From NCBI RefSeq assembly GCF_900169565.1, contig NZ_LT828648.1, positions 496,001-560,000 on the forward strand: a stretch of DNA of 64,000 nt. The letters run 5' to 3'. The position numbers and the translations under genes were made by a program. Below the pieces are notes generated by a model that was not told the DNA's origin, ran no database searches, and saw nothing but the letters and a program-made list of their open reading frames with translations. The stretch is from Nitrospira japonica (GTDB lineage: Bacteria > Nitrospirota > Nitrospiria > Nitrospirales > Nitrospiraceae). This document shows positions 4,442-10,122 of the stretch, one piece after another (within the stretch, counting starts at the first letter, position 1; each line of letters opens with the position of its first letter).

Positions 4442-4483
4442 AGGTGCGTATTGTTAGCCTATTCGCGTTCCCGCGAGGACCCC

Positions 4484-5920
4484 GTGGCAGGTATCGCCCA
4501 GACCCTTCGGCACAAGGTCCGGTCAATCGTCAATCGACCCTCCGGTCTGGACGAGATGGCGATCGATGACCTCGCGGCCTCCAACAAGCTTCGAGCCTGG
4601 GAAGCCGTACAAATTCCCGAACGGCTGAAGTTCTCCTCGAAGCTCGCGCTGACGCTCATTCTGCTTTTCATATTGATCATCGCGTTTTTGCCGTGGACCC
4701 AGACCATTACGGTCACGGGTCAACTGTCCGCCTATACGCCGTTCGAGCGACCACAGGACATCGAAGCACAGATTACGGGCCGCATCAGAAAATGGCACAT
4801 TTTCGAGGGCGTCCGCGTCAGACAAGGGGATCTCATCCTTGAGCTGGACGACTATGATCCGAACTTCATGGCTCCGGATCTCTTGGTGCTCTTAGAGCAA
4901 CGACGCGTTGCCCTAACCGAAACCCGCAAGGCTGCCCTGTCACGCGCCGGGCAATTGGACAAACGCATCGGGGAAATGCAGAACATCGTGAAAGCCGCGG
5001 TCCCCTCGGCCCAAGCCCGCGTGGTTGAAGCGGAAAGCAAAGTCCGTGAGGCGTATCAAAAGGTCGAGGCGGCTAAGATCGCGGTTGCAACCGCTGAATT
5101 GAACGTCGATCGCCATAAGCAACTGGCCGAGCAAGGACTTGTCTCTCAGCGTGAGTTGGAAGTCGCCATTCAATTCGCCATTGCATCGAAGGCAGATCTC
5201 ACCGGTACGCAGGCCAATCTCAAGGCGGCAGAGCAAGGCATGAAGGCGCTGAGCTTCGGCCGGGATCAGGTCAACGCGGAGGTCCTCCAACGGTTGCTGG
5301 ATGCCGAGGCGGCTCGAGATGCGTCGATCGCCGAGGCCGCACGAGCAGCCGATCAATTGGCCGAGGTATCGCTTCGCATGTCCAATGCCGAGCAACGCCG
5401 AAGCGCGAGCCGCATCCTCGCCCCCATGGACGGGACCGTCGTGAAGATGATGCAGGCCGGCGCCGGCGAAACCGTTCGGCAGGGGGATAAGATCGTCCGT
5501 CTTTCTCCAACCAGCGCCGATAAAGCCATCGAGATGACGGCCGACGGTCTCGACGCCCCGCTTCTGAACGTCGGTAGAAAGGTCCGGATCCTGTTTTACG
5601 GTATTCCGGCCATTCCGCTGCCGGCCTGGCCTGACCTGATGGCCGGGACCTTCGGCGGTCTCATCAAAGTCGTTGATCAAGTCGATGACGGAAAGGGCAA
5701 TTTCCGTTTCTGGGTTGTGCCGGACCCGGACGACCGTGCATGGCCCCCTCAAGAACACGTGCGCCAGGGCACCAAAGCCATGGGCTGGGTGATTCTCAAC
5801 CGTGTCCCGTTGTGGTACGAACTCTGGCGCCGCTTCAACCTGTTCCCGCCGGACTATCAAGAACGTCCTCCAAGCCTCATCGATACCCTCTTGCCCAAAG
5901 CAGGAAGGGGTGCCAAGTAA
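4484..5920 (+). CDS. HlyD-family periplasmic adaptor (membrane fusion) protein
   Basis: Adaptor that would link an inner-membrane exporter to a TolC-like outer-membrane channel. It has a cytoplasmic N-terminus of about 50 residues, one membrane helix ([17 protein letters not shown]), a first biotinyl-lipoyl-like half ([20 protein letters not shown]), a long Ala/Glu/Lys/Arg-rich coiled coil, then the second lipoyl half ([28 protein letters not shown]) and a beta-barrel region. This is the classic MFP order. The GTG start at 4484 is preferred because GAGGA lies 4 nt upstream of it; a TTG at 4451 is the alternative. A tolC-like gene and an ABC gene follow, as in type I secretion loci. Confidence 0.88.
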
Positions 5921-6040
5921 GGATTGCCCAGACGTCTTAGTTTCGTTCCCGTTCCTGTGCATTCAGTGTCTGCGGTGATGTGCCACCTGAGGAAGGGGGC
6001 ACCGGCCAGCCGTCATTCTTTTTGAGGAAAGGAGTGTTCC

Positions 6041-7528
6041 ATGTCTGTTCGATGTCTACTCGCCCTGGTCCTCACCCTCGCGCTCTTCGGCCGGCTCCCG
6101 GCCTTCGCCGCCTCGGAATTCCCGGTTTCCGACAGAACACTCCCGCCCATTCCCCTAAGCGTGGACGAAGTTCATGCGTGGATCGATCGTTCCCATCCGC
6201 TGCTGAAGGGAGCCGGAACGGAAAAGGTCATGGCGCGCGGCAAGATGTTGAAGGCGCTCGGAGCGTTTGAGCCGGTCCTCATCAACGATACGGAGCTGGA
6301 GCGGTTCATTTCCAGTTCCAATCCGGGCTTGGGAACCCAGTCCAAGGGATACAACGACACCTTGATCGAAGCAAGACATCCTTGGGGTTTCCGCGGATCC
6401 GCCGGTATCAGAGAAGTCATCAACGGTCCCGCCAATATTCCCGATCTGGGTTTTGGCGGAGGGACAGGCCAGGTCATTCTCGGCGGATTCTTCCCGCTTC
6501 TCAAAGGATTGATGATCAACCCTGATAGCGCCGAGTTGCAGCGTTCGGAATTGGCGGATCCGCGTGCCGACATTAAAATCGCCCAAACCCGGCAGGATCT
6601 GTTTCTCGCCGCCGCGACCCAGTTCTGGGATTGGGTGGCTGCCGTCCGATTTGTGGAGTTGCAACGGAAAGCTGTGGGGGTCGCCGAAGGGAGATTCAAA
6701 CAGATCGAAGGGAGAGCAAAAGCCGGAGCGGTGGCGCCTCTCGATGTGGTCGAGGCCAATCAAGAGGTGCAACGCCGACGCGAAGTGGCGATCGGCGCCC
6801 AGCGGCTGGTAGAGCAGGAGCAGCTGAAGCTCTCGATGTTTCTGTGGGACAACGGCGCCCCGTCGGCTCCCACCATGGAGCGGGCGCCGGGATTCCCGTC
6901 ACAGATGCTCATTCCCAACCCCGAGGACGTCAAGGTTCATAAGCTGCAAGCAAAATCGGAGCGTCCCGAAGTCAAAGAGATCGGCATCGAGGCGAAACTG
7001 AACAACATCGATCTCGAGCTGGCAAAGAACAATCTCCTGCCCAGTCTCGACGCGGAAGCCGCCCCGGCGCGACAGCCGGAAAAGTTCGTGTTGGGACTCG
7101 GCTATCGCTTCGGCATTGAACTGAAGATGCCGATCCTTCAACGCAAGGGTCGCGGCGAGGTGTTGGAAGCGCAAGGGAAAGCCGATCGGTTCGTGCTGAC
7201 CCAGCGGTTCCGCGAGCAGCAGGTGGTCATCGACGTGGACAACGCGTTGTCGGCAATCGAGCGGGCAAAAGAGCGGATCTCTCTGGCGGTCGAATCGCTT
7301 CGCCTCGCCAAGGCCGTCGAGGAGGGCGAGCGGTTTCGATTCAGCCTCGGCGCGACGAGCGTATTGTTCGTGAACTTACGGGAACGGAACTCCGTAGACT
7401 CGGAGGCGCAGGTCATCCGTGCCAAGGCCGACTATCAGAAGGCCCTGGCGCTCTATCAATGGGCCATCGGGACGTGGGGCAAGTCCGATCCATCGGCCAT
7501 CCCGGTGAATTATCGGTCCAGGGACTGA
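6041..7528 (+). CDS. TolC-family outer-membrane channel protein
   Basis: 495 residues with a cleavable signal peptide (about 1-24, ending near AFAA). Two long heptad-rich helical regions follow in the TolC manner, for example around residues 180-270 (AATQFWDWVAA, AKAGAVAPLDVVEANQEVQRRRE) and 380-480. It is expected to form a trimeric channel across the outer membrane and periplasm. A good ribosome site (AGGAAAGGAG) precedes the ATG. It lies 120 bp after the HlyD-like gene and 86 bp before the ABC gene, so the three probably form one export apparatus. Sequence similarity is only at family level, so the cargo is unknown. Confidence 0.88.
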   Translation: MSVRCLLALVLTLALFGRLPAFAASEFPVSDRTLPPIPLSVDEVHAWIDRSHPLLKGAGTEKVMARGKMLKALGAFEPVLINDTELERFISSSNPGLGTQSKGYNDTLIEARHPWGFRGSAGIREVINGPANIPDLGFGGGTGQVILGGFFPLLKGLMINPDSAELQRSELADPRADIKIAQTRQDLFLAAATQFWDWVAAVRFVELQRKAVGVAEGRFKQIEGRAKAGAVAPLDVVEANQEVQRRREVAIGAQRLVEQEQLKLSMFLWDNGAPSAPTMERAPGFPSQMLIPNPEDVKVHKLQAKSERPEVKEIGIEAKLNNIDLELAKNNLLPSLDAEAAPARQPEKFVLGLGYRFGIELKMPILQRKGRGEVLEAQGKADRFVLTQRFREQQVVIDVDNALSAIERAKERISLAVESLRLAKAVEEGERFRFSLGATSVLFVNLRERNSVDSEAQVIRAKADYQKALALYQWAIGTWGKSDPSAIPVNYRSRD

Positions 7529-7530
7529 TC

Positions 7531-7558
7531 GGGGAAGAAGTGGTTTTTCCCCTTGTGA
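7531..7558 (+). terminator. Weak hairpin after the tolC-like gene
   Basis: GGGGAA (7531-7536) pairs with TTCCCC (7547-7552) across a 10-nt loop, followed by a short T-rich stretch. It could be a weak or partial terminator between the tolC-like and ABC genes, or a processing site. The lack of a clean T-tract makes it doubtful. Confidence 0.25.
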
Positions 7559-7614
7559 TTTGATAGCTTTAGCCTGGTGTTTCGTCGTCTTGGCGCCGCC
7601 GTGGAGTCCAATCG

Positions 7615-9324
7615 GTGCTTCGACGGCGGCCCATGCTTCAGACGGAGAGGCGGGATTCTGTGCAAGCAGCCACGGGTAGCCATCCGAACCTGATTCAAGC
7701 CATACTCGGTTATATCAGCATCATTTTCCGTCTGGAGCGACGGCTTCTGGCGCTGGTGTTCTCCTACTCGCTTGCCATCGGGCTCTTCTCCTTGATCGTA
7801 CCGTTGACCGTGCAAGAACTGGTCAACACCTTCGCGTTCGCAATTCAACCGGTCACGATCGTCACCCTCGCTGGCGTCATGGTGGCGGCCCTCCTGTTCG
7901 TGGGCGCCTTCAAAGCGCTTCAGTACTATGCCGTGGAGATGCTGGAACGGCGATTCTTCGCGCGAGTCGCCATCGGAATGGCCGAGCAGCTGCCTCACCT
8001 GCAGTTTCTGGGCTTCAAGCCCCGTTACGCAAATTTCTTCATGGAAACCGTGTTCATGCAGCGGGCTATGTCCGTCCTCCTGGTCGATCTGATCGACGTC
8101 GTGGTCGGAGGGGCGGTAGGGCTGACCATCCTTGTGTTTTATCATCCCTATTTTCTGCTCTATGCGGCACTTTTGCTCGCCGGATTCAACGTCGTCTTCT
8201 TCCTTTTGTCTCACGGAGGACTCAAGGCCACGCTGGAGATGTCCCACGCCAAGTATGAAACGCTTCATTGGATGCAGGAGATTTCGTACAACCTGCTGCA
8301 CTTCAAAGCGACGGACAGCCAAAACCTGCTCATGCAGCGAACCGACGAACTCGTCAATCACTATTTGGAAACCCGCCAGACCCGCTTCGGCATCCTGATC
8401 CGCCAATACCTGGGATCGGTGGGCTGGCAAGCCTTGGCACAGAGCGGTCTCATCGCCACCGCCGGATGGCTGGTTTCGATCGGCCAATTGACGCTCGGGC
8501 AATTGGTCGCCGCGGAGGTCGTCGTCAGCGGTCTCATCGCGAGTTTCGACGGGGTGGTCAAGCGTATGGGCCACATTTACTATTTCCTGACCGGACTGGT
8601 GGAGCTGGATTTCGTTTTCTCCCTGGCCAAGGACAAGACCGCGACCACGCTCTCGGTCCCGCTTCCGGATCCGACCATCCACGGCATTCGGGTTACCTGC
8701 AAGGACCTGGCGGTCCAACACCCGGAGCTGCCTCCGATTTTCAGCCAGTTCGACCTCGAAGTGATGCCGGGAGAAAAAATCGGGGTCTATGCCGGCACGA
8801 CCATCGCCAAGACCGGATTGGCGCGTGTTCTGGCCGGCATCGAAGCGCCGACTTCGGGAGTCATCCGCTACAACGGCGTGGATCTCCGGCACATCGACCT
8901 GACCGCCATCAACCGTTGCCGCGGCTTCATGATCGACTCTCAATTGTCGCTCTTCGAGGGCACGATCGAAGACAACATCGTGCTCGGGCGCTCATATGTT
9001 CCGTACGCCGACGTCCGATGGGCCTTGCGCTTCGTCGAACTGGAGGAAGAGGTGGATACCCTGCCGCAGGGACTGAAGACGAACGTCCGCGCGCCGGGGA
9101 AAATCCTCGCCCCCACCCACATCATCCGCATCCTTCTCGCCAGGGCCATCCTGAGCCGGCCGCAGATTCTCATTTTCGACGGCATTCTTCACAATCTTCA
9201 ACCGGCGCTGCGTGAAACCGTCCTCCGCCGTATTTGTTCCAAGGACGAGCCCTGGTCGGTCGTATTCGTTTCCAACGATCCGAACTTGACGGCACATGTC
9301 GACCGGCGAGTGATCCTGGACTGA
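7615..9324 (+). CDS. Exporter-type ABC transporter (TM domain + NBD) with degraded ATPase motifs
   Basis: 569 residues: an N-terminal exporter transmembrane domain (about 40-345, six hydrophobic segments) fused to an ABC nucleotide-binding domain (about 355-569). The NBD fold is recognisable, but nearly every catalytic motif is changed. Walker A reads AGTTIAKT (consensus GxxGxGKS/T; the Lys is kept). The Q-loop glutamine is missing (FMIDSQ in place of VPQD). The LSGGQ signature is replaced by LAPTH. Walker B is LIFDG, with Gly in place of the catalytic Glu. The H-loop His is Asn (VSNDPN). GTG 7660, with GGAGAGG upstream, is an alternative start. ATP hydrolysis looks unlikely; the protein may be a structural platform or work by another energy source. 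Confidence 0.85.
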   Translation: MLRRRPMLQTERRDSVQAATGSHPNLIQAILGYISIIFRLERRLLALVFSYSLAIGLFSLIVPLTVQELVNTFAFAIQPVTIVTLAGVMVAALLFVGAFKALQYYAVEMLERRFFARVAIGMAEQLPHLQFLGFKPRYANFFMETVFMQRAMSVLLVDLIDVVVGGAVGLTILVFYHPYFLLYAALLLAGFNVVFFLLSHGGLKATLEMSHAKYETLHWMQEISYNLLHFKATDSQNLLMQRTDELVNHYLETRQTRFGILIRQYLGSVGWQALAQSGLIATAGWLVSIGQLTLGQLVAAEVVVSGLIASFDGVVKRMGHIYYFLTGLVELDFVFSLAKDKTATTLSVPLPDPTIHGIRVTCKDLAVQHPELPPIFSQFDLEVMPGEKIGVYAGTTIAKTGLARVLAGIEAPTSGVIRYNGVDLRHIDLTAINRCRGFMIDSQLSLFEGTIEDNIVLGRSYVPYADVRWALRFVELEEEVDTLPQGLKTNVRAPGKILAPTHIIRILLARAILSRPQILIFDGILHNLQPALRETVLRRICSKDEPWSVVFVSNDPNLTAHVDRRVILD

Positions 9325-9333
9325 AGGAGAACC

Positions 9334-10122
9334 GTGGTACATCCCGTGCAGTGGATTCTGTCGTTTAAGCCGACCGCCGCGCAGTTGGTCGTCAGCATCC
9401 TGATCGCTGGATTGGGCTGGCTCAGCGGGCAGGCATTGAGCCGCGTCGATCAGGACCTACGGATCATGTACACGGAATATACGCTCGGCGCCGCCGATCT
9501 CGCGCATATTTCGGCGGACGTGATGCGCTATCGCAACACGATCATCAGGGCGCTGGAAGCCGACAGTCAGAAGGAATTCGAGCGTATCACCGAATCGTTG
9601 CCGACTCAGCGCGCGCGGATTCAGCAGGCTGTGGACCGCTATGCGGCGGCGGGGCTCCGCGTCTCACGGAGCGGACGGAGCGAACCGGAAGACATTGAAG
9701 CGGTACGGCGAAGTCTCGATCAGTATTTTTCAGCCGCCAGCACGACCGTGCAATTGCTCACGCAGGAATGGACGGCATCGTCGCAGTCCGAGCGGGAAGT
9801 CCTTCGGCGCAAAGCCGAAGAACATGCCGCTGATAATGCCGGCCCAAAAATGATTCAAGTCAGTCTGGCGCTGGACCGCTTGCTGGACACGGTCGCTGAC
9901 GTGGCGAAAGACATGCGGGACGAGGGCACCAGAGCGATTCAAGATACCAGCCTGCTCCTGGTCGTGGGCAGTTTCTTCATCGCGTTTCTGAATTTGTTCT
10001 TATCAAAACGGCGCCATGCCGCCCCGCAAGACGACTCGGCGGAATTGTCCCACACGCCGTCTTCCTCCGTTCCGCTTCCCCTTTCCAACGACCACACGAA
10101 TTCCCTCCTGCGCTCCAAATAG
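9334..10122 (+). CDS. Four-helix-bundle (4HB-MCP-like) membrane protein without signalling domain
   Basis: 262 residues, bounded by two membrane helices (about 15-32 and 204-222), with a periplasmic helical region between them that resembles the 4HB ligand-binding domain of chemoreceptors (HISADVMRYRNTIIRALE; QQAVDRYAA; VAKDMRDEGTRAIQDTS). The cytoplasmic tail is only about 40 residues, Ser/Pro-rich, and has no HAMP, kinase or chemoreceptor signalling domain. It begins 9 bp after the ABC gene, so it is almost certainly co-transcribed with it. It may sense or gate the export complex; this is inference from context. The start codon is GTG. Confidence 0.75.
   Translation: MVHPVQWILSFKPTAAQLVVSILIAGLGWLSGQALSRVDQDLRIMYTEYTLGAADLAHISADVMRYRNTIIRALEADSQKEFERITESLPTQRARIQQAVDRYAAAGLRVSRSGRSEPEDIEAVRRSLDQYFSAASTTVQLLTQEWTASSQSEREVLRRKAEEHAADNAGPKMIQVSLALDRLLDTVADVAKDMRDEGTRAIQDTSLLLVVGSFFIAFLNLFLSKRRHAAPQDDSAELSHTPSSSVPLPLSNDHTNSLLRSK

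Follow-up and report, generated by a model that had tools for sequence, protein, structure and literature searches.

A type I secretion-like gene unit of Nitrospira built on an ABC protein with a conserved but catalytically degenerate nucleotide-binding domain

Tripartite ABC systems are regarded as pumps driven by ATP; in SUR and CFTR, the ABC exporter fold is used as a regulator or gated pore and not as a pump, and sensory modules composed of a transporter and a histidine kinase are known from the BceAB-BceRS type. Exporters that are heterodimers with one degenerate and one consensus ATP site, e.g. TmrAB and TM287/288, are discussed in PMC8277102. PMC4452313 reports that in some phyla, and in one species of Nitrospirae among them, SecA_DEAD proteins are encoded together with HlyD/OEP proteins for which no ABC partner is recognisable.

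The stretch of DNA analysed here (the window, 64,000 nucleotides) is part of a 4.08 Mb chromosome of Nitrospira and contains a gene unit that combines HlyD- and TolC-like proteins with an ABC protein of degenerate nucleotide-binding domain (NBD). The loss of catalysis is well supported, as judged from the residues concerned; the function of the complex we infer. No described ATPase-dead HlyD/TolC system was found in the literature searched, the scope of which excluded subscription papers and preprints, and its novelty is therefore provisional. If the reading given below is true, a widespread family has kept adaptor and channel without ATP catalysis, and the assembly would be useful without its motor.

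The four-gene unit of the window

Four genes on the plus strand form one unit in the order HlyD, TolC, ABC and 4HB, as an earlier reading of the window from its sequence alone (the sequence-only reading) had proposed. The HlyD-like periplasmic adaptor (4451..5920, + strand, with an alternative GTG start at 4484, +; PF13437, 4.4e-10) possesses one transmembrane helix near residues 65-83 and scores below the cut-off of TIGR01843 (64.5 versus 208.65 bits); the TolC-like outer membrane channel (6041..7528, +; PF02321, 2e-31) starts with a signal-peptide-like stretch. They are followed by an exporter-fold ABC protein of 569 aa with a catalytically degenerate NBD (7615..9324, +) and by a membrane protein with a periplasmic four-helix bundle (4HB; 9334..10122, +; PF12729, 4.2e-09; PF02203, 1e-06). 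Domains were called by Pfam (HlyD_3, OEP, ABC_tran and 4HB_MCP_1/TarH). Complete Nitrospira loci with this gene order number 43: the ABC gene is single in 26, including that of the window, and present twice in 17.

Type I secretion is thus matched in the HlyD-type adaptor, the TolC-type channel and an exporter-fold ABC protein of the HlyB kind. The transmembrane domain (TMD) of the latter (about residues 25-345; 7687..8649, +) was delimited by alignment and by the helices of an AlphaFold2 model, the degenerate NBD (about residues 355-569; 8677..9321, +) by PF00005 (3e-07). According to the model, which was computed with 32 sequences (pLDDT 80, pTM 0.70), the protein adopts the exporter fold, and among solved structures HlyB in the HlyB/HlyD complex 8dck matches it best (Foldseek 1.2e-24, rmsd 2.8, 545 columns). 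It did not match the ABC_membrane models, and its scores for the curated exporter families were all far below the respective cut-offs (TIGR03796, 132.5 bits versus 853.3; TIGR03375, 107.2 versus 693.1; TIGR01846, 82.4 versus 725.55), the best being that for TIGR03796, the NHLM/C39-type exporters.

The type I secretion trait of a competent ATPase (Walker A/B, LSGGQ, Glu, His) is missing by sequence. The former Walker A reads AGTTIAKT (residues 393-400; 8791..8814, +) with Lys and Thr retained and the glycine-rich loop gone; in the alignment, LAPTH stands for the LSGGQ signature (residues 498-502; 9106..9120, +), Walker B (IFDG; 9166..9183, +) has Gly for the catalytic Glu at residue 523, and the H-loop position (VSND; 9274..9276, +) has Asn for His at residue 554. 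These losses, listed by the sequence-only reading, were all borne out; its further statement that the Q-loop Gln is absent holds for the canonical position but depends on the alignment, since a Gln is located close by in MIDSQLSLF, a region with a one-residue insertion. All nine residues checked were present in four canonical exporters of the same order that were included in the same alignment as a control, so that the losses are not due to chance.

The 4HB protein has two transmembrane helices (residues 18-36 and 201-219) and a mean column identity of 70% among 39 sequences. As in chemoreceptors and kinase sensors, it contains a 4HB ligand-binding domain: its model (pLDDT 78, pTM 0.60) resembles those of the chemoreceptors Vc1313 (closest) and MCP2201. 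A cytoplasmic output domain is absent from the protein, the second helix being followed by about 43 residues that are mostly of low confidence in the model. Within the conserved neighbourhood, no linked exported substrate (RTX or leader-peptide protein) was recognised. At a single locus (L068:9998-17257), the place of the 4HB gene after the dead ABC gene is taken by a 2420-codon ORF with Kelch, Ig-like and RHS repeats.

Conservation of the degenerate domain and its absence from two species

Orthologues and paralogues were gathered from related genomes, resulting in 117 distinct homologues from Nitrospirales and Nitrococcus. Neither the catalytic Glu nor the H-loop His occurs in any of them (0/117 each): the position of the former is occupied by Gly in 111 and by Ser in 2, with a gap in 4, and this Gly is invariant in the 32-row alignment. 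In eight pairwise comparisons, the NBD had dN/dS values of 0.013-0.064; they were equally low for the TMD (0.007-0.100) and the partner proteins, with HlyD low in all pairs. Column variability was assessed on 53 representatives of less than 85% NBD identity: the former P-loop has a mean entropy of 2.18 bits versus 1.47 for the whole NBD, and 11% of the same-length NBD windows are as variable; 16 NBD columns are almost invariant, though the P-loop is among the most variable stretches. Low dN/dS, variable P-loop and invariant columns together indicate that the NBD is kept, yet not as the usual ATPase site. The view that the domain is conserved and not decaying is hence supported, the substitutions being shared across genera and the NBD being under strong purifying selection; close relatives with intact motifs did not appear, nearly intact ones being confined to the distant L216 and L218. 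A frame change separates TMD from NBD in the first of two tandem ABC copies at one locus (L022:5983-8478); the split is either genuine or due to an error in the draft assembly.

L107 and L108 come from two species that belong to another family of the order. Their ABC gene ends with a clean stop within about 30 residues of the TMD (348 and 339 aa), with HlyD and TolC intact upstream. Both form a single clade in the TMD tree; the NBD was therefore probably lost in one event. Relocation of the domain within these genomes was rejected, as a whole-genome profile search detected no orthologous NBD (best matches 1e-29 and 3e-32, compared with about 1e-119 and 1e-121 for the same profile in two congeners). 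The TMD-only gene has a dN/dS of 0.28 versus 0.15-0.17 for HlyD and TolC, and in view of this weaker constraint L107 and L108 could be heading to loss. A NuoL-like gene and DabA lie downstream of one NBD-less unit (L108:5495-11728), and on a Sphingobium plasmid (L167:1362-3914) the dead ABC gene has a DUF2309 gene before it; a link to inorganic-carbon genes was considered and set aside as coincidence, because DabA/DUF2309 was present beside these two loci and not beside the others examined.

Gene arrangements and distribution of the family

The four genes do not always co-occur, and the composition is not peculiar to the four-gene set, contrary to what had been supposed: HlyD-TolC-dead ABC units without 4HB are found in Nitrococcus mobilis and in other Nitrospirales. 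The unit of this gammaproteobacterial nitrite oxidiser (L088) groups inside the Nitrospirales clade, which makes horizontal transfer probable. Further arrangements comprise TolC-ABC with divergent HlyD (four loci) and tandem TolC-like genes followed by one dead ABC and HlyD (five loci: three TolC copies in L080 (3024-7845), L114, L120 and L124, two in L121). Three tandem TolC-like genes possibly encode a heterotrimeric outer membrane channel; the agreement of the tandem copies with the subunit numbers (two ABC, three TolC) suggests heteromeric assemblies. The tandem ABC pairs consist of two dead copies each, and a heterodimer formed from them would likewise lack an intact site.

Two kinds of ABC genes without HlyD or TolC occur in Nitrospirales. 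In the first, the orphan dead ABC gene has a PAS histidine kinase and an NtrC-type regulator as neighbours, as domain search showed for L024, L082, L118 and L126; L025 likely represents the same trio, judging by the size of its ORFs and by a kinase start that resembles the others. Two transmembrane helices of the trio kinases enclose a very short extracytoplasmic loop (about 33 residues). In the second, the orphan dead ABC is accompanied by a GT2 glycosyltransferase (L026, L119, L125) and, in L026 and L119, by a PMT-like protein as well.

The TMD family was detected in 77 Nitrospirota genomes of the sample, all in two families of one order that also contain most nxrB genomes. A strict tie to nitrite oxidation was nevertheless not supported, since 18 nxrB genomes of the order are devoid of the TMD family, which is also present in other phyla; some genomes with the family had no nxrB match, possibly through incomplete assemblies. 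TIGR03479 proved unsuitable as an NXR marker.

The wider family was searched with a TMD-only profile that is blind to the NBD. Relatives were obtained from 10 of 274 gammaproteobacterial genomes besides Nitrococcus, from 11 of 378 Pseudomonadota genomes (including Nitrococcus and one already counted), and from 76 of 201 and 6 of 200 genomes in two gammaproteobacterial orders. Distant relatives (23-33% TMD identity) beside HlyD/TolC genes are present in Gammaproteobacteria, Alphaproteobacteria and Bacteroidota, and tblastn located relatives on plasmids of sphingomonads, Persicobacter, Aureibacter and Riemerella, where annotated units have the order ABC transporter, HlyD, TolC. HlyD adjoins the ABC gene in 60/60 sampled loci of the wide family. 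Dead-ABC units are consequently not limited to the present set, and the annotation "ABC transporter ATP-binding protein" given to such proteins, e.g. on the sphingomonad and Riemerella plasmids, is probably misleading.

A tree of 103 rows was calculated; leaving aside the Nitrospira/Nitrococcus clade and the canonical controls, it has 84 rows, two of which are identical. Walker A Lys, Walker B Asp, catalytic Glu and H-loop His are all kept in 2/84 only, namely L216 and L218, whose signature is LSLGE or ISLGE. On this quick tree with several long branches and four canonical outgroups, the minimum number of changes amounted to 9 each for Lys, Asp and Glu and to 6 for His; in consequence, motif loss was probably repeated. 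The members grade from nearly intact (L216, L218) to NBD-less (L107, L108), which renders the transition from motor to pseudo-enzyme directly testable.

Proposed role, competing explanations and known systems

As catalysis is lost yet the NBD conserved, the complex requires a different source of energy or a different role. The NBD is kept by selection, deleted in two species, and similar complexes exist in other phyla; hence these complexes probably do something other than ATP-powered pumping. We consider the chances about even that the unit represents a tripartite conduit or sensor that works independently of ATPase activity, descends from type I secretion and is gated here by the 4HB protein. 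The four genes would then encode a type-I-secretion-like complex spanning both membranes, with an ABC protein presumed to hydrolyse ATP no longer: its TMD dimer would serve as anchor and gate of the HlyD-TolC conduit, and the NBD, as a pseudo-enzyme, would stabilise or regulate the dimer. Movement through the conduit, if any, would be passive or powered by something other than ATP hydrolysis at this NBD, and the 4HB protein may sense a ligand in the periplasm and thereby set the state of the gate. The orphan paralogues with histidine kinase and NtrC-type regulator probably work as a sensor. Slightly more tentative is the generalisation to a tripartite class crossing phyla, in which the motor was repeatedly switched off and then kept or deleted, leaving an ATP-independent conduit, scaffold or sensor. 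The sequence-only reading had offered another energy source, a partner ATPase or a non-transport role: a sensor or scaffold fits the kinase/NtrC paralogues, whereas a partner ATPase was not found within the conserved neighbourhood.

Among the competing explanations, an NBD that binds nucleotide as a slow or ligand-like switch, i.e. a nucleotide sensor as in SUR that does not drive transport, is unlikely, if less so than the others. The Walker A Lys is retained in 98/117 homologues, and Lys399 together with Thr400 in most class I members, so that nucleotide binding may persist in the clade of the window, and the entire NBD is under purifying selection; however, the glycine-rich P-loop is gone, Lys is replaced by Arg or other residues in the clade of Nitrococcus and its relatives, and two species manage without the NBD.

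Rather improbable is that the dead ABC protein pairs as the degenerate subunit with an unlinked canonical one, the heterodimer being an ordinary ATP-driven exporter. TmrAB and TM287/288, as treated in PMC8277102, provide the precedent, and the five other ABC_membrane matches in the genome of the window could supply the intact half. Yet the known heterodimers keep one composite site intact, which a linked partner does not offer here, being dead as well where present; the neighbourhoods mapped for the unit show no recurrent canonical ABC gene, two species have lost the NBD entirely, and the motifs are also lost in distant relatives with the same gene neighbours.

Still less probable is a separate ATPase (e.g. 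a SecA-like or AAA protein) powering the conduit. The SecA_DEAD proteins encoded with HlyD/OEP without an ABC partner would lend it plausibility, but no ATPase gene recurs beside the mapped units, and the module of PMC4452313 has M50-like membrane proteins instead of an ABC homologue; a SecA-type partner for the Nitrospira unit was rejected, this being a different module. Recent gene decay, i.e. a pseudogene in progress, might be suspected from the joint loss of several motifs but is contradicted by intact frames in nearly all full-length homologues, by dN/dS far below 1 and by the same substitutions across genera, and can be dismissed.

The ATPase-independent conduit or sensor favoured here shares features with several known systems. 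With type I secretion (HlyB-HlyD-TolC) and the C39-type exporters (NHLM, PCAT) it has in common the exporter fold, HlyD and TolC in one operon; it differs in the missing catalytic Glu, H-loop His, LSGGQ and glycine P-loop. The SecA_DEAD-HlyD-OEP loci likewise possess periplasmic and outer-membrane parts of the type I secretion type and no canonical ABC motor but, in contrast to the Nitrospira unit, encode a SecA-like ATPase (PMC4452313). Degenerate NBD motifs and exporter fold are shared with TmrAB and TM287/288, whereas neither the Nitrospira gene nor the tandem pair provides an intact site, and the unit includes HlyD and TolC. As in BceAB-BceRS, the orphan dead ABC adjoins a short-loop kinase and a response regulator; in contrast, the Nitrospira ABC protein is exporter-type and lacks the ATPase residues, and the regulator is sigma-54-dependent (NtrC type). 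SUR and CFTR, finally, combine the exporter fold with a non-pump use such as that proposed for the Nitrospira ABC protein but are eukaryotic and retain ATP binding and at least one functional site.
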